DNA of 64,000 bases, taken from contig JAENYK010000004.1 in NCBI GenBank assembly GCA_016841825.1, positions 310,001-374,000 of the forward strand. Direction: 5' to 3'. Made by a program: the position numbers and the translations under genes. This DNA is from Halothermothrix sp. (GTDB taxonomy: Bacteria; Bacillota; Halanaerobiia; DY22613). Within the stretch, counting starts at the first letter, position 1; each line of letters starts with the position of its first letter. The notes under the pieces were generated by a model, which did not search any database, was not told where the DNA came from, and saw only the letters and a program-made list of their open reading frames with translations. Below are positions 1,169 through 22,430 of the stretch, piece after piece.

Positions 1169-1199
1169 TTAATCCTCACTAAACCCGGGCCAGTTAGAT
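1117..1199 (-). repeat. Imperfect 19-nt direct repeat around the peptide 3' end
   Basis: The minus-strand sequence ATCTAACTGGCCCGGGTTT (inside the peptide gene, 1181-1199) recurs as ATCTAACTGACCTGGGTTT at 1119-1137, offset by 62 bp. The second copy is out of frame and would read SN-stop-PGF against SNWPGF in the gene. It looks like a decayed duplicate of the peptide's C-terminal motif. Confidence 0.6.
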
Positions 1200-1318
1200 G
1201 TCGTCACTATAGGGTCAGTATCCGTCTGAACAGAATCAATAGATTCAGCAGCAAAAATAATACCACTACTTAGTAAAAGAATTGATACTACCAAAATACC
1301 CACTAATAATTTTTTCAT
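1169..1318 (-). CDS. Small exported peptide, candidate Phr-like signalling pro-peptide (49 aa)
   Basis: The ATG at 1318 has a strong ribosome binding site (AAAGGAGGGGGA) and lies only 20 nt after the stop of the upstream TPR gene, so the two are almost certainly co-transcribed. The product begins MKKLLVGILVVSILLLSSG, a clear Sec signal peptide with likely cleavage near FAA-ES, leaving a mature tail of about 25 residues ending TTSNWPGFSED. Seen: signal peptide, coupling to a TPR gene, tiny size. Known: Rap-Phr, NprR-NprX and PlcR-PapR pairs (RRNPP family) have exactly this layout, with the exported pro-peptide trimmed to a 5-10 residue pheromone that binds the TPR protein. Inferred: the C-terminal SNWPGFSED region is the signal. 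It could instead be an unrelated small secreted protein. Confidence 0.65.
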   Translation of the reverse strand: MKKLLVGILVVSILLLSSGIIFAAESIDSVQTDTDPIVTTSNWPGFSED

Positions 1319-1338
1319 GAAAGCGCTCCCCCTCCTTT

Positions 1339-2307
1339 TTACATTTTTTCATAAAATAGAGTATTTTTAAAATACCCTTTAATTCCCTTCTGCAATGAAT
1401 TGACACACATATTGTCAAACTGTTTGGATACCTCTAATATCTTGCAGAAACATTTAAAAGCATATGGTAGTGCTTCTGCATCTATAAAGAAATCTAATGC
1501 CATGTACAGTGAATCTACAGCCCTTAAATATTCTTCATTCAATAAATATATTTTTGAAGTAGTATAAAAACCTTTTGCTATTTCTAAATTATTATGATAT
1601 TTTTCTCCTAATAATTCAACTTCCCGTAAATATTCTTCTGCCTTTGATAAACATTCGATCATCACATATAATTCAGCTAAGTTATTATATACTTCCGGTA
1701 ATTCTCCTTCTTGACAATACTGGATAGCCTGTTCTTGCATCTCTATTGCTTTATCAATATTACCGAATAGATAGTAATATTCGCCATAGTTTATACAGAT
1801 CAACTTTTTATTCACGTCTTTCTTAAGTAGTTCAAAATATGTATCAGTTGCCTTTAACCATTTTGAAGCTTCATCTAAATATTTTTTATCTTCTTCATAT
1901 GTACGATACATTGCCAAATAAGTAGCAGATAAATTAATGTATATCTCTGTTTGCAACTCAATATTATCAGTTTCTACTAATACTCTCTCATAAATATTTA
2001 TTGCTTCCTTAAATAATCCACGATAGGTAGCGATTAAACCTCTATATTTCAGAAGGCGAATCCTATCATCACCGTTATTATATCTAAGGGCTTCTTCGAT
2101 AACATTTAGTGCTTTATCATATTCTCTAAGCAAAAATAAACCTTTAGCTTTAAAAAAAATAACCTTTGAATAAAGTTTCGTTTCATTACTAGATAATAAT
2201 GATGCATAACTAATATTTTCCATAAAAGCCATAGAATCCTTCTGTTCTAACATCCTCTCTGCTTCTACAAAGTACTTCTCAGCTGAAACAATAGTAGTCC
2301 CACTCAT
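1339..2307 (-). CDS. TPR-repeat protein, Rap-like candidate (322 aa)
   Basis: The whole length is built of helix-turn-helix pairs of the tetratricopeptide type, with TPR-like positions repeating about every 35-40 residues (for example GLFLLREYDKALNVIEEAL and ELYVMIECLSKAEEYLREV). There is no N-terminal DNA-binding domain and no signal peptide, so it is a cytosolic protein-interaction scaffold. The ATG at 2307 follows AGGAGG with 10-nt spacing. It is immediately followed by a tiny exported peptide gene, as in Rap-Phr quorum-sensing pairs, where the TPR protein inhibits a response-regulator phosphatase target or a transcription factor until the re-imported peptide binds. That role is inference from layout. 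No target gene is adjacent except possibly the membrane protein downstream. Confidence 0.75.
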   Translation of the reverse strand: MSGTTIVSAEKYFVEAERMLEQKDSMAFMENISYASLLSSNETKLYSKVIFFKAKGLFLLREYDKALNVIEEALRYNNGDDRIRLLKYRGLIATYRGLFKEAINIYERVLVETDNIELQTEIYINLSATYLAMYRTYEEDKKYLDEASKWLKATDTYFELLKKDVNKKLICINYGEYYYLFGNIDKAIEMQEQAIQYCQEGELPEVYNNLAELYVMIECLSKAEEYLREVELLGEKYHNNLEIAKGFYTTSKIYLLNEEYLRAVDSLYMALDFFIDAEALPYAFKCFCKILEVSKQFDNMCVNSLQKGIKGYFKNTLFYEKM

Positions 2308-2776
2308 TCCATGCCATCCTCCTGTCTTTTTATAGTACGGACTATCTTCAAACTAATAGTTTTTACCAATTATATCATATAATGATGGGTAAATCAATAA
2401 TAATTTAACGATAATTACATTTATAGTTATTTTTAATTGTACATAGAAAAATATATTCTGTTCTAAAGACAATGCCTATTTTCATAAGATTACTGTAATT
2501 TTTAACCTTCATTTAAATAGATAAGATAAATTGTAAATGATCTAAAGAATATTTTAGATCAATTAATAAAATACTCCTTCCATGTTAACTTTGGTTACTG
2601 CCTGGAATCATACCTATACCAGAAGCACTTTAAATCTGTGACTCCTTTAAAGTATCATCATTATTTATCTATGTCAGTTGCATAACTATGGAGTTATCTC
2701 AAAATGATTTTTCACAAACCATTTTGAGATAACCCTTCTAAAATAGTCAGGAACTATTCTTCAATCGCTTTCCAGG
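2308..2776. other. Intergenic, about 470 bp
   Basis: AT-rich and without a credible gene on either strand. It contains a perfect 14-bp inverted repeat at 2693-2733, presumably the terminator of the decayed genes to its right. The promoter of the TPR gene should lie at its left end but no clear -35/-10 pair stands out. Confidence 0.5.
2693..2733 (-). terminator. 14-bp perfect hairpin
   Basis: GTTATCTCAAAATG (2693-2706) pairs perfectly with CATTTTGAGATAAC (2720-2733) over a 13-nt loop. No clean T-run follows on either side, but its position at the end of a cluster suggests transcription termination. Confidence 0.45.
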
Positions 2777-2894
2777 TTACCAGATATCAACCTTGTCAAT
2801 ACCCAGCACTCTTTGAAATTCCTCCAATTGGTCTCTGTATCTTTAAATACTCAACCAACTTTGATTCATTAAAAAAATTCAACTTTTTTGCCAT
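2777..2894 (-). pseudogene. Frameshifted small gene (about 38 aa originally)
   Basis: An ATG at 2894 behind CAGGAGTG reads MAKKLNFFNESKLVEYLK and then leaves frame, stopping at 2796. Shifting one base at about 2840 continues coherently as RYRDQLEEFQRVLGIDKVDIW to a stop at 2777. The coherent second frame suggests a one-base change in a small acidic protein gene. It starts 7 nt after the stop of the preceding reading frame, so it was probably in an operon with it. No family recognised. Confidence 0.5.
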
Positions 2895-2900
2895 TTAAAA

Positions 2901-3176
2901 TCACTCCTGGTTTAATTTGTTTTTCGCTTCTAGTTGAATTTCTTTGAAAAATGATTCAAGTTTAGGTTTTTCAGCAAGAATACAGGCACCCCGGAATCCC
3001 CATGCAAATTTATTTTCTAATAACCATATTTCATAAATATTCTCATTCAATTCTGGATTTCGAAATGACATAAACCCGATAGTATCCATTTCTGTTGAAA
3101 ACCATCTATCAATATTTTTTCCGTTAATCACACTCTGGAGAAAAACAAAAAGACATTTTATGTCATCCTTATACAT
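2901..3176 (-). CDS. Unknown small protein, start probably lost (91 aa from the first ATG)
   Basis: The only in-frame ATG (3176) has no ribosome binding site, yet protein-like sequence continues upstream in the same frame to 3278 (GYVNWQKDWIEYEAQI and onward), where a TAG closes it inside the 3' end of the neighbouring gene. The real N-terminus is therefore missing or the gene begins at an unusual codon. The content (WLLENKFAWGFRGACILAE) resembles small cytosolic immunity-type proteins but I do not recognise the family. It is likely a truncated immunity gene in the decayed toxin-immunity island. Confidence 0.45.
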   Translation of the reverse strand: MYKDDIKCLFVFLQSVINGKNIDRWFSTEMDTIGFMSFRNPELNENIYEIWLLENKFAWGFRGACILAEKPKLESFFKEIQLEAKNKLNQE

Positions 3177-3262
3177 AGTATATAAACTATGATTAATAGG
3201 AAAAACAACTATGTCATTGACTATTATTTGTGCTTCATATTCTATCCAATCCTTTTGCCAGT

Positions 3263-3700
3263 TTACATAACCTTTGATCTAAATAACAACAAAGCTTCTC
3301 TCAATTCTATTATATCTTTTTCAAATAAAAACTCATAGCTTTCACTTTTTTTAATATCAATATTTTCAAGAATAGTTTTTGCAATATTTGATACTTCCCT
3401 ATTATTTTCCCAAAAATCACTTTCTATCTCAGCTAAATTTATTAGTACTTCACCTTCAAACATTTCCCCAATAAGAGGATCTAATTTGATGCGGTCAAGA
3501 GCTTCACAAACTATGTAATCAAGAAAAATTCTTTGACGTATAAATCGTGCAATATCTCCATCTATTAGTTCAATTAATTTTTTTGTCCGGACTTTATCGT
3601 ACCATACTGTCAATGAAGACTCAAAGTCATAACCGTCATATTCTATACCTTCCAACTTTTCAATATCTCTAATTGTTACGTTTTTACACCATTTTTTCAC
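3263..3700 (-). CDS. CdiI-like contact-dependent inhibition immunity protein (145 aa)
   Basis: The start is GTG at 3700 behind GGAGGTG with 7-nt spacing. The central and C-terminal parts match, from memory, the common CDI immunity pattern: a helical stretch (IARFIRQRIFLDYIVCEAL) followed by DPLIGEMFEGEVLINLAEI and SDFWENN. Proteins of this type bind and neutralise the C-terminal toxin of a CdiA/Rhs-like polymorphic toxin in the cytoplasm. No toxin gene with a compatible C-terminus is present beside it, so it is an orphan immunity gene. An alternative is an uncharacterised protein that shares the motif by chance. Confidence 0.6.
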   Translation of the reverse strand: MKKWCKNVTIRDIEKLEGIEYDGYDFESSLTVWYDKVRTKKLIELIDGDIARFIRQRIFLDYIVCEALDRIKLDPLIGEMFEGEVLINLAEIESDFWENNREVSNIAKTILENIDIKKSESYEFLFEKDIIELREALLLFRSKVM

Positions 3701-3913
3701 TATTTACACCTCCAATACTTAATAAATCAATAATCCTGTTTATATAATCATTAGTTAAATAATATGCATCCTGGTTTTTAGATTTTTAGAGTTTCATAGA
3801 CGGTGGTTAACTATGATGATCCAAAAAAGTTACCTTCCGACAGTCAATAATAGTCGAAGACATACACATTAGTTTCAGAAAACCAACGAACAGAAAACCC
3901 ACAGATAATAACC

Positions 3914-3942
3914 AAAAGGGGTTGCTTCATCTCGAAACAGCC
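3914..3942 (-). terminator. Candidate terminator after the 3962-4108 remnant
   Basis: On the minus strand GGGGCTG pairs with CAACCCC (one mismatch) and is followed by TTTT, about 20 nt past the stop of the remnant. Confidence 0.4.
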
Positions 3943-3961
3943 CCCTAAACATAAAATGCAT

Positions 3962-4108
3962 TTATTTGAATGGGTCAGTTAGATATTCTACTAAATCTTT
4001 TCCGGTAAACAAGATCTTTAGCGTTGTATCATCAATCCAGTCAATCTCCTCAGCGTGCGACTGTAGTTTTTCGTATTTTAGTTTCATATTATCATTTACA
4101 AATACCAC
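3962..4108 (-). pseudogene. C-terminal remnant of an unknown protein (48 codons)
   Basis: From GTG 4108 the frame reads VVFVNDNMKLKYEKLQ and ends LVEYLTDPFK. In-frame protein-like codons (SGGYY) precede the GTG before a stop, and no ribosome binding site is present. This looks like the 3' end of a gene whose 5' part was deleted. Function unknown. Confidence 0.35.
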
Positions 4109-4303
4109 ATAATAACCCCCGCTTTATTTACAAAAATAGGAGCAACTCCGTACGGGTTTTGATTTTTCAGCGTTTAGACTTAATTAATACTTTCACCTGT
4201 TAGGTGAAAAGGAAGACTAGCTATAATCGCTGGTATAGCAATTACGCAAACTGGTTTATTTGTTTTTTCATGAATAAAGCGGGTATAGTATTCTTAAAAA
4301 GAA

Positions 4304-4347
4304 AGAACCCTTTAATGCTAAGTTATATAAAAAATCAAATGGGTTCT
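4304..4347 (-). terminator. Terminator-like hairpin
   Basis: AGAACCC (4314-4320) pairs with GGGTTCT (4341-4347). On the minus strand the stem is followed by TTCTTTTT. It lies about 310 bp downstream of the colicin-E5-type immunity gene. Confidence 0.55.
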
Positions 4348-4656
4348 CTAATCTGCTAAAAGTATCCCCATTAAAAAAGTAATATTTTTGATTGTTTAAA
4401 TCCAGATGCAGTCTTTAGCCATCCATTTTGCAGCATCTCTTTCATTTAAGTTTTCTATATATTCAATTTGGAAATACCCGATTTTAAAATAAATAACTAA
4501 TAATATTTTATCCTATTTGGCAAAATGTTCTTGTGTTTTACTACTTCAGCATAATCCTAACACTTAATTCAGATAGATATAGAGATAGGTGTAGATAACT
4601 TGTTAAAGATAAAAGATATCTGTGTAATGCATATCATAAATAGAATAATAAGTTTT

Positions 4657-4893
4657 TTATATATCGTAATAATCTACTGCAATTAACGCCTTTTTTCCCC
4701 ACCTCATTGATTCTTTGCAAACAACTACAGTTCCAGGCAAGAACTTCCATTCCTCATCTGCCGGGATATAACCATTTATTGGCATAACTCTGTAAATTAG
4801 ATGACCAAGCTTCTCCCCCATCGTAGGACGCCAAACTTGAGTACCTTCATTCATTAATGGCACGTATATTTCCTCTTTAATACCCAAAACCAT
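4657..4893 (-). CDS. Immunity protein for a colicin-E5-like toxin (about 78-82 aa)
   Basis: The protein contains YVPLMNEGTQVWRPT, then YRVMPINGYIP, EEWKFLPGTVVVCKE and a C-terminal ALIAVDYYD. This is a small beta-rich protein type that, as I recall, commonly follows E5-type toxin domains. The longest frame starts at ATG 4905. ATG 4893 is also possible; both overlap the end of the toxin frame, so translation is coupled. Its job would be to sequester the tRNA-cleaving toxin in the cytoplasm. The toxin next to it is broken, yet this gene has no visible defect. That fits selection for immunity against kin or neighbours, or simply recent decay of the toxin. Confidence 0.6.
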   Translation of the reverse strand: MVLGIKEEIYVPLMNEGTQVWRPTMGEKLGHLIYRVMPINGYIPADEEWKFLPGTVVVCKESMRWGKKALIAVDYYDI

Positions 4894-5395
4894 CACCCCC
4901 AACATGTAACAGTTGCTTAGTTATATTATCAATAACTATTGAGCGACCCGTTACGGGGTGCACAAATCTTGTTGCACCATTAAGAGGATTAACAAAATTA
5001 GGTGCTGCAATGCTCTCCCCATAACCAATCGCTTCTGTAATCTGATTTTCTGTCCACCCCCTTTGATTCATTTGATTCTGCCATTTATTTGCAGATTTGT
5101 GGTCTCCATAATTTCATTTTTTCTCTGGACCATTGTTACCATTATTAGTATTATTAATGTTATTCGAAGAATCATTATTCCCGTCACTAACTTTATCTGC
5201 ATTATTTGATATAGCGTCAATGAATCCAGGTATTTTGTCAACATAAGTTATTAAGAACTCTCCTGATCCAATTAAAACGCCTGTTCCAGCATAGACTAAA
5301 TCTCCAATAGGTAAGATTCCATCTACACCACATAACCACCAGGTGCTACTAAACCAAGTGGCAGTCCATGCTCCCGAGAATCCTGTAGGAGCCAC
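4877..5395 (-). pseudogene. Colicin-E5-like ribonuclease toxin module with in-frame stop
   Basis: Two open segments lie in one frame, separated by a single TGA at 5114-5116. The upstream segment (GTG 5395 on) has PTGFSGAWTATWFSSTWW, a hydrophobic glycine-rich stretch and an Asn-rich linker. After the TGA the frame continues NYGDHKSANKWQNQMNQRGW and then TENQITEAI ... NPLNGATRFVHPVTGRS ... HVGGDGFGY. The RGWTE..I..I, NP..A and HP.TG...V.D motifs match the catalytic domain of colicin E5 (RGWTEDDI; a tRNA anticodon nuclease of the BECR fold). There is no secretion domain, repeat region or start region upstream, so this is an orphan toxin cassette cut from a larger polymorphic toxin. A coding-like stretch in another frame just upstream (FIAPFAP) hints at a further frameshift. 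Confidence 0.65.
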
Positions 5396-5444
5396 ATACT
5401 TCGAGGGGCAAATGGCGCAATAAATTTCGGAGATACAGATTAAT

Positions 5445-5488
5445 AAATCAAAATGACTACCTCATTTTTAAGGCAACCATTTTGATTT
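5445..5488. terminator. 11-bp perfect inverted repeat
   Basis: AAATCAAAATG (5445-5455) pairs with CATTTTGATTT (5478-5488). It sits between the paralogue pair (upstream on the minus strand) and the toxin remnant, as expected for a terminator of the pair. Confidence 0.45.
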
Positions 5489-5600
5489 AGAGATTAAATT
5501 TAGTGAAAACTGTTTTGGTTTAATTATAGCTAAATATCCTAAATTAAAGGAAGTATTTTCTATATAACTTACAAAAGCTTATCAAGATCATTTGCAAAAA

Positions 5601-6134
5601 TCACTCTGATATAAGATCATCTGCAAACAAAAATTCATATATGGTCGCATCGTTTTTGGCAGAATCCAATCTCACCCCAGGAAGTCTGCGGATTAAATCA
5701 TCACGGCTTAGAATTTGATGAGAAATTGATTCAGCGAAACCGGACAATTTCTCTAAATATATCTCATCTTCCTGAAACCATGGTGATTCGGCCTTATCGG
5801 ACTGTACTAGATCGTCAATCAAAAAATGTCTTTTGAATGCACAGCAAATATAAGAATCAATCGTAGATATTTGTATTTCCAGGCTATAGACAAATTCCTT
5901 ATTCTTTAGAAGATCTTCAATATTATTGTTTTCTTCATACAAACCACAGCGGGATAAGTCGATAAAAAACTTAAAACATTTTGAATTAGTAAAATCTGTC
6001 CTGTTATATAGCCAATCACCAGAAAAAAATTCATTAATTTTTTCAGTCCAAAAATCCCTGTCGACATAATTAATTAGGAGATCTTTGATATCCCAGCCCT
6101 GATAAAATTTATGGACATACTCAAGAGCTTTCAT
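5601..6134 (-). CDS. Unknown protein, paralogue of the gene upstream (177 aa)
   Basis: I chose ATG 6134 (behind GAGGTG, 7-nt spacing); the frame itself is open to 6218. This start gives 177 aa, the same length as the neighbouring gene, to which it aligns end to end: YV.RDFW..KI.EFF, TDF...KCF.FFIDLS, an I.IS segment, AF.RHF, and a C-terminal PGVRL...N.A..YEFLF.DD. The protein is acidic, cytosolic and lacks signal peptide or transmembrane segment. Family not recognised. Its size, location and tandem duplication fit immunity proteins of polymorphic toxins, which is inference only. Confidence 0.65.
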   Translation of the reverse strand: MKALEYVHKFYQGWDIKDLLINYVDRDFWTEKINEFFSGDWLYNRTDFTNSKCFKFFIDLSRCGLYEENNNIEDLLKNKEFVYSLEIQISTIDSYICCAFKRHFLIDDLVQSDKAESPWFQEDEIYLEKLSGFAESISHQILSRDDLIRRLPGVRLDSAKNDATIYEFLFADDLISE

Positions 6135-6168
6135 CTCCTTACACCTCTTTTCAAACAGATATTTTTGC

Positions 6169-6702
6169 TTATGGAAAATGCCTATCCTGAAAAAGACAGT
6201 TGTAAACACTCGCTTCATTATCAGTCAGCTCTAATACCATCCCCGGAATGATTATATCTAAAGTATCATCATCAAAGACGTTTAAATTCTCATTTTTAAT
6301 TAACTCAGCTAATCTCAGCTGATAGACTTTATGCTCCTCTAAAAATGGCTGATTGCTAATTTCCAGCTTCGTTTCACCATTTTCCCTGTAGTATTTCGCA
6401 AATATAACCATAGCATAGGGACCCAAAACCGAGATCAAGATTTTCAAAATATAGAAGGTCCCATTCAGGTTTAAAAAGTCATCAAATTTTTGTTCAGTCA
6501 GATCAGCATCCGTATCAGAGAGATTTATCCATATTGTAAAACACTTGTCATAATTAAAATCTGTATGGCTATGAACTGTTTTGTCAGGAAAATAAGATTG
6601 GAATTTGGGTATCCAGAAATCTGGATGAACATAGGTAAATAATGTGTGAGTTAAAACCCCGTATTGATATCGATATAAGAGTAATTGAATTAAACTATCC
6701 AT
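6169..6702 (-). CDS. Unknown protein, first of a tandem paralogous pair (177 aa)
   Basis: The start ATG 6702 lies behind AAAGGACG. Conserved blocks shared with the downstream gene are YVHPDFWIPKFQSYF, HTDFNYDKCFTIWINLS, LKILIS, an IFAKYY segment and PGMVLELTDNEASVYNCLF. The two copies differ widely between blocks, so the duplication is old or the two were acquired separately. No known domain recognised and no toxin or enzyme motif seen. Only 34 nt separate the two genes, so they form one operon. Confidence 0.65.
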   Translation of the reverse strand: MDSLIQLLLYRYQYGVLTHTLFTYVHPDFWIPKFQSYFPDKTVHSHTDFNYDKCFTIWINLSDTDADLTEQKFDDFLNLNGTFYILKILISVLGPYAMVIFAKYYRENGETKLEISNQPFLEEHKVYQLRLAELIKNENLNVFDDDTLDIIIPGMVLELTDNEASVYNCLFQDRHFP

Positions 6703-7277: not shown

Positions 7278-8165
7278 TTAATCATCCGCTTCTACAGGAG
7301 CATCAACTGTCTGCTCTGTCTCTTCTATCGGAATACTATCCTGAGAATTAGCTTCAGCTTCCGGTTCAGCCTGAGCACCGTCTTTCTGATCTGCATTTGC
7401 AGCATTCTCCGAATCAGTATCAGGCTCTTCTGCTGCATCAGTATTGCTGGATTCCTCCTCTTCGTCATCGTCAATAGTGAACTCCAAGACTGCATTGTCA
7501 GTGATAATGAAGCCCTCTTCTTCACCTTCTAGTATGGAGACGAACTCTTCACAATTGATCTTCTCATCATCTTTACCGATTACCAGAACATCTCCTCTGG
7601 CAATTACCTTGTCCTCGGCTTCGATATATTCCAGATAATCACCTGTGATGTGATCCTCATCCACATCCATAATTACCTGACCATTAGCTACCAGATGATC
7701 TGTATCCCCACTCTTATAATTAACCTTATCCGCTTTAATGGTGATAATATCATTTTCAGTCTTTTCTTCCGAAGTCTCTTTCTTTTTCCTTACATAATAA
7801 ATGTCTACCTGCTGCTCAAAAAGAAATTCATCCTTCTTAAGATCAGCTTCCATCTCGATAGAGGTTATTTTGGTCTCACCCTGTAATACCACAACATTAC
7901 CGGAAAAATTGGCTCGTTCCTCATCCTCATAATACTCAATAGTATCTGCTGTTATCACATAATCCTTATAAACCATTCGGGCACTATCTTTGAATAGAAA
8001 ATACCCTTCTTTCTTAAAATAACGGCCATTAGTTGTATAAACTGTCCCTTTTTCCGCATATGCCTCACCCACAAAAATTACTCCAATTATTAAGATTAAC
8101 AGACTGATTCCGAGAATTCTAATCATTCTATAGCTGTTCGACTTACTTTTTGCCAGATCTCTCAT
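7278..8165 (-). CDS. lptA: LptA/OstA-like periplasmic LPS-bridge protein (295 aa)
   Basis: Residues about 16-38 form a signal peptide or anchor ending near AYA-EK. The body consists of repeated OstA-type beta segments (YVITADTIEYYEDEERANFSG, ITIKADKVNYKSGD, HITGDYLEYIEAEDKVIARG), the fold that forms the periplasmic LPS bridge between LptC and LptD. The last 70 residues are a very acidic Glu/Asp/Ala/Asn-rich tail not found in typical LptA (about 180 aa), likely disordered. The ATG overlaps the lptC stop by 4 nt, so the two are coupled. It is the last gene of lptD-lptC-lptA. The exact orthology within the OstA superfamily is not certain. Confidence 0.75.
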   Translation of the reverse strand: MRDLAKSKSNSYRMIRILGISLLILIIGVIFVGEAYAEKGTVYTTNGRYFKKEGYFLFKDSARMVYKDYVITADTIEYYEDEERANFSGNVVVLQGETKITSIEMEADLKKDEFLFEQQVDIYYVRKKKETSEEKTENDIITIKADKVNYKSGDTDHLVANGQVIMDVDEDHITGDYLEYIEAEDKVIARGDVLVIGKDDEKINCEEFVSILEGEEEGFIITDNAVLEFTIDDDEEEESSNTDAAEEPDTDSENAANADQKDGAQAEPEAEANSQDSIPIEETEQTVDAPVEADD

Positions 8166-10940: not shown

Positions 10941-11116
10941 TTTAACCTACAAAAATGGAACTTTTTAAGTCCCTAAGCGTCACAAACTATATCAAAACAA
11001 ATTCTCGATATATACCTAAATCTCCTTCACAGATGAATAACCAAATTTTTATTAAAGACTTTTTTTCTAAAAAACACCTTTAGAAAACAAATTTTACGAA
11101 TAAGGAAGTGATCTTA

Positions 11117-12943
11117 ATGAACAAAAAATATATTCTGCCAATAAGTTTTTTGCTCTTAACATTATTACTGACAGCTTGTTTTGGTCCCAGAGTACATATC
11201 ACCGGTCAGATAGTTGACCAGAATGGACGTCTGGTGGAGGGAATTAACGTCATCTGTAAAGGTTCAACAGATAGAACAGATAGTTCTGGTCGTTTTTCTT
11301 TCACAATCGAAAGCGTAGATTACCCAACAGATGTTAATATCACCTTTGAAGGCTCTAAATTAGGATTCGAAACTTCTACCAGATCTATCAGAATCGAACC
11401 TGATGAAGATCGAAATATGGGAAAAGTTACCTTGCAGCGAGTTAAAGCTTTAATTTATGGAGAAGTGACTGGTAACTTTTTTGATCAAAGTATGCAGCCC
11501 ATGAACACTGAACAGGTTGAATTACCAACCAGACCAAATCTGCCTTATCCCGAAGGAGAAATTATTGTTAAGTTTAAAGATAGTGTTCAAACTCAGGGAA
11601 TTAATACTCTTTCTGCTAATATGAACTTGGAGGTAGTAAAAAAATTCTCCAAAATGAACATTTTTACTGTCAGAGCAGCAGGAGATATGGATCAGACTAT
11701 CCAATCTTTAAAAGAAAGACCTGATGTTGAATATGCAGAACCTAATTACTATATCTATCCTTTGAGTGTTGAGACTGATCAAATCACTCCCAGTGGGTAT
11801 GTATCGAACTATACATGGAATCTGGAAGCGATTAATGTCCCCTTAACCTGGACGCATGAAGAGACGGGGAGTCGTAGTGTAACCGTAGCAGTTTTGGATA
11901 CTGGCATTGAGCGCAATCTTTCCGATTTAGAGTATAATATAGACTGGGAGCTGGGTTATGATTTTGTTGATAACGATGACGATCCCAGTGTCTGGTGGGA
12001 GACTCACGGAACTCAGGTAGCTTCAATTATTGGAGCTCGACCCGACAATGGCTATGGAATTGATGGAGTCAACCAACAGGTGAGTATCGTCCCGATTAGA
12101 ATTTTAAATTCGGTCAATAATGATGGTGTTTATGGCAAAACCACTGATCTTCTTCTGGGTATGGAGCATGCGATTAATATGGGTGTGGATATCATCAATC
12201 TAAGTATCGCTATGGATATACCCATCTACTCCGATAGTCAGGCGGTTAATGAGATGATTGATCTTGCTGAACGTAGCGGCGTCTTAATTGTGGCAGCTGC
12301 CGGAAATGATGGGGATTCCACCCCCGTTTACCCGGCTTCCCACTCCAGGGTGCTATCTGTAGGTGCTGTCGGGCCGACACTACAACCAGCATCCTACACT
12401 AACCGGGGTGTTGACATCTACGCTCCAGGGGGAGACTACTACCTCTACCCTGCCAGTCAGTATAACACGATCAAAACCTTAGAAGGGTGGGCTCAGGGTA
12501 CTTCTATAGCCAGTGCCCATGTAGCCGGTGTAGCTGCTCTATTAAAAGCCAGTAGCCCATATCTATCTCCAGCCGAGATGCGGTATCGGTTAACTGATAC
12601 ATCATTACAATTTCCTTACGATGATATAAGTAATCCCGGATTAGTCGATGCCTATAGAGCCATTACCAACATTGAACATGGACGCATTGCGGTCTTCGTA
12701 GGTCATGAGGAGAGCAATTACTTCCGCTATGAAAGTGAAGAATCAACCTATACCTATATTCAATCTGGCAAGAATATGTATCAGATCTCCACAGTGCCGC
12801 CGGGCTGGCATTGGGTTTATGCCTGGGTTGATCGGGATGCTGATGGCAGATTATCATATTACGACTATTATGCTGAAGAACATGTTTATCTGGATGAAGG
12901 GGATCAACAGAGAATAGACTTACAGCTTAGAACATGGTATTAA
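11117..12943 (+). CDS. Lipoprotein subtilisin-like serine protease (S8), about 608 aa
   Basis: ATG 11117 follows AAGGAAG by 8 nt; a GTG 9 nt upstream is in frame but overlaps that site. The signal peptide ends in a lipobox (LLLTAC), so the protein is lipid-anchored outside the cytoplasmic membrane. Next comes a carboxypeptidase-regulatory-like beta domain (about 25-110, GQIVDQNGRLVEGINV), then a propeptide resembling the fervidolysin/I9 type (EGEIIVKFKDSV ... DVEYAEPNYYI). The S8 domain has all three catalytic motifs: Asp in VAVLDTGIE, His in HGTQVASIIGA and Ser in GTSIASAHVAGVAAL. A C-terminal beta domain with Asp-rich DRDADGRLSYYDYY may bind calcium. A BsuPI-type protein gene follows 110 bp downstream on the same strand. 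Confidence 0.85.
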   Translation: MNKKYILPISFLLLTLLLTACFGPRVHITGQIVDQNGRLVEGINVICKGSTDRTDSSGRFSFTIESVDYPTDVNITFEGSKLGFETSTRSIRIEPDEDRNMGKVTLQRVKALIYGEVTGNFFDQSMQPMNTEQVELPTRPNLPYPEGEIIVKFKDSVQTQGINTLSANMNLEVVKKFSKMNIFTVRAAGDMDQTIQSLKERPDVEYAEPNYYIYPLSVETDQITPSGYVSNYTWNLEAINVPLTWTHEETGSRSVTVAVLDTGIERNLSDLEYNIDWELGYDFVDNDDDPSVWWETHGTQVASIIGARPDNGYGIDGVNQQVSIVPIRILNSVNNDGVYGKTTDLLLGMEHAINMGVDIINLSIAMDIPIYSDSQAVNEMIDLAERSGVLIVAAAGNDGDSTPVYPASHSRVLSVGAVGPTLQPASYTNRGVDIYAPGGDYYLYPASQYNTIKTLEGWAQGTSIASAHVAGVAALLKASSPYLSPAEMRYRLTDTSLQFPYDDISNPGLVDAYRAITNIEHGRIAVFVGHEESNYFRYESEESTYTYIQSGKNMYQISTVPPGWHWVYAWVDRDADGRLSYYDYYAEEHVYLDEGDQQRIDLQLRTWY

Positions 12944-20741: not shown

Positions 20742-22430
20742 CTAGAAGGTTTGACCGATACTAAAGTGTGGTTGACCACCATTTGAACCAAAGGCATAGT
20801 CTAAGCGAATCTGACCAAGAGGTGTATTCATTCTCACACCTGCACCTATAGACATATTGAACTCCTCTAAATTAAGCACTTGATCATTATTCCAGGAGTT
20901 ACCCACATCTGTGAAGACCGCACCCTGCAGGTTTTTCACCACTGGGAAACGATATTCAACATTGAACAGAGCCGTCTTGTCACCATTAAACTCGCCCTGA
21001 TCGTAACCACGAATAGTCTCACTACCTCCTATACGGAACTTTTCATGAGATGGCAAATCACCTAAACTTAGACCACCTTTTAAGCGAAATGCCCAGGTAT
21101 GGTCTTCTTTAAATCCTGGATAATAACGACGCATCTCTAAATTAAGCTTGGTAAAATCATAATCTCCACCCAGAAGATGACCTGCATATTCTACAGATGC
21201 CATGTCTCTGCCACCTGTACCTGGATTATACGGATCATCGGTAGTATCTTTGACTGCAGATAGTGTCAGACTACCCGTATTACCTCTTTCTTCACCATAT
21301 GGTTCCTCTTCAAAGGTATTAAGTGTATTTTCATATTTGAACTTCAAAGAACCAGTAATATCTTCAGCCAGAGGCTTACCAATCTGGATACTTCCACCTT
21401 TGGAATTTCTGGTGTATTTACCTTTTTCAGAGTCTTTCAGATTTCTGGAGGTTGTGTTATACAAACTTACCCCAAAGGAGAATTCCTGACCGAAAGCCCA
21501 TGGATCATAAAAATTAAGTTCATAGTTAGTCATCTGACCAAATTCCCACTTAAATCCAAGCTTCTGACCCCGACCGAAGAGATTCTGTTCAGAAGCATCT
21601 ATATAACCAAACCAGCCATCTGCAGAACTATAGGCACCACCTAATTGGAGCTGACCGGTCTTCTTCTCATCAACTTCAATTATTAGATTAACCTTGTTAG
21701 ATTTTGTCTCCGCATCAGCATCAGCTAATTCAATCTTCTGATTGATAGAATCAAATAAACCAAGATTATAGATGTCTCTTAAATTTTTCTGAACTTTATT
21801 CAAGTCAAATACCTCACCTGGTGTGATGTCCAGTTCTCTTCTAATGACATAATCTCTGGTTTTTTCGTTACCTTTAATCAAAATCTCATTCAAAAAACCT
21901 TCATTAATAGTAATCTGCAAAGTGTTAACGGGGCTTATTGAAACATCAGATACATAAGCTAACACCAATCCCTGATCACGATAATATTCCTCAATGGTTC
22001 GTAAATCCTGATCTAAAATATTGGTATTTAAGAGTTGACCAGGTTTTACATTCATCATCTCTTGTAAGACATCAGCTGAGATAACTTCTGTACCATTAAT
22101 CTCTATCCCATTAATCCGTGGATGTTCGACAACATTAAAGATCAGTTTTACTCCACCCAGATAGTTCTCTGGATCAATTCTCAGATCATAAAAGTACCCC
22201 AGATCATATATCGCCTGTAAATCTGCCTGGAGTTGTTCATTATTAATCTTCTGACCTACTTTAGTCTTGATCACATTCAAAATCTCTTCAGAAGGTACTG
22301 AATTATTCCCCTTAACCTCTATTGCAGTAACCAAATTAATTGATTCCTGAGAGGTGGCAGCAGAAACTATCCCACTAACCAACACACCCAACACACTGAT
22401 AACAAGTAATATTATTAGACCTTTTCTCAA
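20742..22430 (-). CDS. bamA: BamA/Omp85 outer-membrane assembly factor (562 aa)
   Basis: The start is TTG 22430 with a strong binding site (AAAGGAGG, 6-nt spacing). Signal peptide, then three POTRA domains (about 35-265: ITAIEVKGNNSVPSEEIL-type, PRINGIEINGTEVISADVLQ, LNEILIKGNEKTRDYVIRRE), then a 16-strand barrel. The barrel carries the Omp85 signatures (GGAYSSADGWFGYIDASEQN, RIGGSETIRGYDQGEF with the conserved VRG/IRG-Y motif) and ends GGQPHFSIGQTF. Proteobacterial BamA has five POTRAs and about 800 aa; three is usual in diderm Firmicutes. It folds and inserts barrels such as the LptD encoded nearby. Confidence 0.93.
   Translation of the reverse strand: MRKGLIILLVISVLGVLVSGIVSAATSQESINLVTAIEVKGNNSVPSEEILNVIKTKVGQKINNEQLQADLQAIYDLGYFYDLRIDPENYLGGVKLIFNVVEHPRINGIEINGTEVISADVLQEMMNVKPGQLLNTNILDQDLRTIEEYYRDQGLVLAYVSDVSISPVNTLQITINEGFLNEILIKGNEKTRDYVIRRELDITPGEVFDLNKVQKNLRDIYNLGLFDSINQKIELADADAETKSNKVNLIIEVDEKKTGQLQLGGAYSSADGWFGYIDASEQNLFGRGQKLGFKWEFGQMTNYELNFYDPWAFGQEFSFGVSLYNTTSRNLKDSEKGKYTRNSKGGSIQIGKPLAEDITGSLKFKYENTLNTFEEEPYGEERGNTGSLTLSAVKDTTDDPYNPGTGGRDMASVEYAGHLLGGDYDFTKLNLEMRRYYPGFKEDHTWAFRLKGGLSLGDLPSHEKFRIGGSETIRGYDQGEFNGDKTALFNVEYRFPVVKNLQGAVFTDVGNSWNNDQVLNLEEFNMSIGAGVRMNTPLGQIRLDYAFGSNGGQPHFSIGQTF

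Follow-up and report, generated by a model that had tools for sequence, protein, structure and literature searches.

What does a TPR protein without a DNA-binding domain do beside the gene of a small exported peptide, in a bacterium with two membranes? RRNPP-type intracellular peptide signalling is described as a gram-positive trait, and its layout in a diderm cell raises the question of whether such peptides are signals between cells or run a private periplasmic loop. The window analysed here, a stretch of 64,000 nucleotides (C43:310001-374000) from a 5.08-Mb genome in 43 contigs, carries the pair on its minus strand, with coordinates, lengths and a 20-nt gap between the genes exactly as in the original prediction. 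Judging from sequence, we consider it probable that this pair belongs to a large set of RRNPP-type peptide-signalling cassettes, with cytoplasmic receptors, in a diderm Firmicute. Its parts are:

1339 to 2307, minus strand: gene of the predicted TPR receptor, 322 aa; seven helical hairpins and a C-terminal helix; asparagine ladder N125, N173, N208/N209.
1169 to 1318, minus strand: pro-peptide gene, 49 aa; signal peptide residues 1–23 correspond to 1318-1250.
1249 to 1172, minus strand: mature part of the pro-peptide, AESIDSVQTDTDPIVTTSNWPGFSED; cleavage site by rule only.
1172 to 1204, minus strand: predicted pheromone region TTSNWPGFSED (compare TTNNWPDPDEN in the peptide of the closest paralogue).
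2369 to 2397, minus strand: promoter-like site, TTGATT-17-TATAAT with TG ahead of the second hexamer, 62 nt before the TPR start.

Strong ribosome sites (AGGAGG and AGGAGGGGG) precede both genes, and the promoter-like site is weak, since 22 such sites were found in the AT-rich region where 11.8 are expected. The 49-aa peptide has a basic N-terminus (K-K), a hydrophobic core and an AxA-type site (...IIFA|AES...), followed by the tail TTSNWPGFSED; here and throughout, signal peptides were called without SignalP, by a rule on charge and hydropathy that also required a ribosome site. For the TPR protein, the Pfam matches above cut-off are to TPRs alone, with no HTH recognised by Pfam, and it has no signal peptide, so we take the receptor to be cytoplasmic. 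The published signature used by RRNPP_detector describes a TPR receptor of 250–500 aa, with or without an N-terminal HTH, and a pro-peptide of 10–100 aa with a Sec signal peptide within −60 to +400 bp (PMC10075063). The window receptor fits this in size and fold (322 aa, TPRs), as does the pro-peptide (49 aa at 20 nt, Sec signal peptide by rule).

Does the pairing exceed chance? A protein search of the genome returned 20 clear paralogues of the window TPR protein (26–48% identity), and nearly every intact copy proved to be followed downstream by a small ORF whose product starts with basic residues and has a hydrophobic core. With a broad profile, the receptor family comprises 37 members in the window's genome, fragments and one frameshifted copy counted, and 14 in one genome of a different genus within the same bacterial family. 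An exported pro-peptide adjoins 22 of the 37 and 10 of the 14, or 32/51 overall. Under a fixed rule (charge, hydropathy, ribosome site, ORF at −20 to +60 nt downstream), none of 241 open frames outside the family (≥200 aa, from the regions examined, some of them shadow ORFs and not genes) had a qualifying ORF. Two apparent control positives both turned out to be receptors of the family, namely the window TPR gene and L074:4276-5178, which has GPNWPPDD in its peptide. At L151 and L050 the order is reversed, the pro-peptide gene preceding that of the receptor, and at L059 two peptides follow one another. Pairs of a TPR gene and a signal-peptide ORF, sought in relatives, were thus found, and the RRNPP-type layout claimed for the window pair is supported across the family. 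No full-length family member was detected in 59 other relatives (57 of the same class) or in 297 other genomes of the phylum outside the bacterial family, and scans of genome contig and viral contig collections gave no relatives. A tblastn search against plasmids and phages returned no match, and the family is therefore not seen there.

Might these instead be ordinary TPR paralogues, the downstream peptides being co-duplicating small secreted proteins of other functions? Generic TPR similarity would fit, as would the 15 of 37 receptors without an adjacent peptide. Homologues lacking a small exported ORF had been named at the outset as grounds for abandoning the proposal, and this applies in part, although the 15 include several that are gene fragments, surplus copies in a tandem array or old orthologues whose synteny is fixed. 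Four peptide-less orthologue pairs of the two genera (L051/L063, L083/L061, L054/L193 and L082/L060), at least three of which share the same neighbourhood, also suit the ordinary-paralogue reading; they are possibly ancestral, non-signalling members. In the known RRNPP subfamilies NprR, AimR, Rap and PlcR, a peptide has been identified for just 40–89% of receptors. A tandem arrangement is seen at L070:6718-11854 (minus strand), where five receptor genes are accompanied by a single pro-peptide after the first and XRE-type HTH genes lie just past the last. What tells against ordinary paralogues is the empty control set (0/241), together with the content of the precursors themselves.

The receptor of the closest paralogue is 48% identical, and its adjoining peptide (MKKVFCFLLMTLIFVEGTFMILTDQPSAVPNVSGEIYTTNNWPDPDEN) ends in TTNNWPDPDEN, with TTxNWP common to this tail and the window's. 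As the middle of the precursor diverges between the two while TTxNWP is kept, we take the tail at the C-terminus to be the signalling portion of the window peptide, in line with the original prediction. Other precursors carry repeats: that of L151 (116 aa) of GDPQNGGDEPFRTE, and that of L062 in the other genus (104 aa) of GPIEQP, lengths that compare with 10–100 aa in the RRNPP signature. In L152, the syntenic orthologue of L062 in the window's genome, GPIQKPV immediately follows the signal peptide and GPIQRPV occupies the C-terminus, and GPI(Q/E)xP is the sole part common to the L062 and L152 precursors. The neighbourhood shared by these two loci holds a CsoR-type repressor gene (L062) and its L152 counterpart and, judged from ORF starts, an ArsR-like and a CoA-disulfide-reductase-like gene. 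Predicted cores occur just after the signal-peptide cut (ADPVWDDEPD, ANPNWADEPD, ADPAWDDEPS, ADPNGHPG) or at the C-terminus (GPTWPGDS, GPWPDPDTDG, TTSNWPGFSED). PxxxP, DP and WP are commoner than in shuffled mature parts (z 4.8, 4.4 and 4.1, with crude cut sites). Across 31 pairs, receptor similarity correlates with mature-peptide similarity (Mantel r 0.48, p 2e-4), as expected of cognate pairs; co-duplication contributes to this and alone would give correlated divergence. Small secreted proteins of other functions would hardly be expected to keep short cores, moved between ends and multiplied, in otherwise unalignable precursors, or to co-vary with the receptors, and we hold ordinary paralogy to be very unlikely. 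For RRNPP-type signalling, the repeated and relocated cores form an unusually clear list of predicted pheromones.

An AlphaFold2 model of the receptor (41 family rows) is all-helical with a pLDDT of 95, its seven TPR-like hairpins starting at residue 9 and followed by the C-terminal helix. Foldseek placed LGN/Pins first, a Rap protein with peptide (4gyo) at rank 33 and RapH at rank 35 (TM 0.38–0.49); by sequence and fold the receptor is thus a general TPR protein, the eukaryotic LGN/Pins scoring above Rap. Residues N125, N173 and N208 occupy the equivalent site of three consecutive TPR A-helices and are kept in 28, 33 and 34 of 41 receptors (68–83%). A conserved asparagine touches the peptide backbone in all RRNPP family members (PMC6458997, PMC3601992), and the ladder, on the concave TPR face and predicted to contact the peptide, resembles this anchor. 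An artificial receptor-peptide read-through model (AlphaFold2) left the peptide unplaced, with pLDDT mostly <50. Identity of the receptor with Rap itself was rejected. There is no Rap family match, the N-terminal three-helix bundle of Rap is not evident in the model, and the features of Phr (a C-terminal penta- or hexapeptide with a conserved arginine at position 2) are absent from the cores, which are acidic, rich in proline and tryptophan and found at either end. The pair can therefore not be called Rap-Phr-like in the strict sense, as it originally was. A role in defence was rejected as well, the TPR proteins giving no PADLOC match.

How might such a receptor act? Having no DNA-binding domain, it must do so by binding a protein. 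XRE-type proteins of about 175 aa (HTH_3) recur next to receptor-peptide pairs: the two genomes together contain 32 matches of this HTH family, 16 of them no more than 1 kb from a receptor gene, in zones that make up 1.6–2.5% of the genomes. Six of the matches built the profile, and without them 10 of 26 are still near receptors. The nearby matches involve 13 receptors, at 12 of which the HTH gene is convergent and lies on the same side as the peptide. Such a neighbour is present at about a third of paired loci; none adjoins the window pair. A precedent is RapLS20/Rco, where a TPR protein stays bound to a separate repressor and the peptide breaks this contact (PMC7430634). Rap proteins act on a response regulator (Spo0F or ComA) or on an Rco-like repressor, and the HTH neighbours suggest the second case. 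We lean slightly towards the convergent XRE-type HTH protein being the receptor's target where it is adjacent, and the gene thereby supplies a predicted target. At L052 and L053, a 112–152 aa XRE gene lies directly 5′ of the receptor gene on the same strand, like a split NprR/PlcR, and no exported peptide was found at these two loci. Two receptor-peptide pairs, L067 (C14:125500-139000) and L068 (C22:1-12000), stand beside nonribosomal peptide synthetase genes (AMP-binding and condensation in both, thioesterase in L067) and recall RRNPP control of biosynthetic clusters. Beside another pair, at L071:5342-10905, translated repeats and ORF starts alone indicate a CRISPR-like array with cas-like genes, and a repeated ORF starting with MVNNSSADSYTDYDRMFKQL, possibly a transposase or nuclease, occurs near several receptor loci (L071, L072, L083).

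Short, variable secreted peptides with tandem copies could also be bacteriocin-like effectors, the TPR protein then being a cytoplasmic immunity or chaperone protein, and toxin/immunity debris does lie in the neighbourhood (window 2796-6702, with a CdiI_3 immunity protein at 3263-3700 and orphan ORFs). However, the mature parts are short (mostly 14–30 aa), acidic and proline-rich, not cationic, and a soluble TPR protein with a conserved asparagine ladder is not a known immunity type. As the HTH genes beside about a third of paired receptors moreover speak for regulation, we regard secreted effectors as very improbable. Within the same debris is a sub-threshold fragment of a colicin-E5-like ribonuclease domain (4877-5071), and farther along the window, at 11108-12943, a subtilisin-like S8 protease similar to mycosin-type sequences is encoded.

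An RRNPP-type peptide would here have to operate in a cell with an outer membrane. LpxC, LpxA and LpxB are encoded next to the pair, just past the window edge, and two genes within the window give context on the diderm cell without being part of the system:

7278 to 8165, minus strand: LptA/LptC-type LPS transport gene.
About 20742 to 22430, minus strand: Omp85/BamA gene.

From these genes an LPS outer membrane is predicted, which bears out the two-membrane host assumed originally; such a membrane is known for Halanaerobiales and Negativicutes, according to the accessible text of PMC5007114. Action of the peptide in the periplasm had also been entertained. A periplasmic receptor was rejected, as the receptors have no signal peptide, and action there is not supported; a loop of Sec export and Opp import needs the inner membrane only. 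The genome encodes 11 SBP_bac_5 (Opp-type peptide-binding) proteins, making re-import from the periplasm plausible. As a sub-version of RRNPP-type signalling, with which its probability overlaps, the peptide may stay in the envelope in an autocrine loop and report export or Opp capacity, or time, not population density. This would agree with the outer membrane genes, with signal peptides that lead to the periplasm only and with Opp binding proteins that work there; yet such short peptides could pass porins, and the tens of pairs, diversified in their cores, resemble a cell-to-cell specificity code. We consider a private loop possible, if rather unlikely.

We propose the following sequence of events for the RRNPP-type cassette. 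The 49-aa precursor would leave the cytoplasm through Sec and lose its signal peptide to signal peptidase, and further trimming would yield a short Pro/Trp/Asp-rich peptide, in the window pair within TTSNWPGFSED. The peptide would build up in the periplasm, from which it may exit through porins, and an Opp-type importer would return it to the cytoplasm. There the asparagine ladder would hold it in the concave groove of its cognate TPR receptor. The receptor would in turn bind a protein; at about a dozen loci this is most likely the neighbouring convergent XRE-type HTH regulator, and peptide binding would switch this contact as for RapLS20 with the repressor Rco; the direction of the switch and the output are likewise inferred. 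We give even odds to the wider proposal of a three-gene RRNPP variant, consisting of an HTH-less receptor, a pro-peptide with its core at either end and a convergent XRE regulator, that comprises >30 receptors and works across or within the outer membrane of a diderm Firmicute. If true, intracellular RRNPP-type peptide signalling is not confined to monoderms, and the presence of many diversified pairs in a host with lipid A and BamA would uncouple the mechanism from a monoderm envelope.

How does the family compare with known systems? Like Rap-Phr of Bacillus, it combines an HTH-less TPR effector, an adjacent exported pro-peptide, many paralogues and an asparagine anchor; unlike Rap-Phr, it has no response-regulator link, its cores are rich in Pro, Trp and Asp, and the core may directly follow the signal peptide. 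With RapLS20/RcoLS20/Phr* of plasmid pLS20 it has in common a TPR protein, a separate DNA-binding repressor and an own exported peptide (PMC7430634), whereas the present family is chromosomal, its host is diderm, and its HTH gene is convergent and present at about a third of paired loci, with contact inferred. Paenibacillus likewise has many receptor-peptide pairs per genome, >25 in some species by the accessible part of PMC7425212, in a monoderm host, the likeness being one of description, not sequence. Closest is a candidate already in print: among the 21 new candidate subfamilies of RRNPP_detector (PMC10075063) is the HTH-less 'subfamily 17 of Anoxybacter fermentans' (Halanaerobiales; PMC10075063, PMC12700828, as far as their accessible text goes). 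It shares HTH-less TPR receptors, an adjacent Sec pro-peptide and the order Halanaerobiales with the window family, which probably is this subfamily, as compared by description and not by sequence. The original claim that such a system would be new is therefore too strong as to its kind, already predicted in silico, and stands as to the diderm setting: subfamily 17 was published as an in-silico cluster of 'gram-positive' bacteria, and the accessible text of PMC12700828 does not discuss outer membrane, HTH partner, motif placement or expansion size. In the part of the literature covered, we found no paper on RRNPP systems in diderm Firmicutes. Compared with these systems, the new elements are the diderm host, the scale of the expansion, the HTH partner and predicted pheromone cores that may lie at either precursor end.
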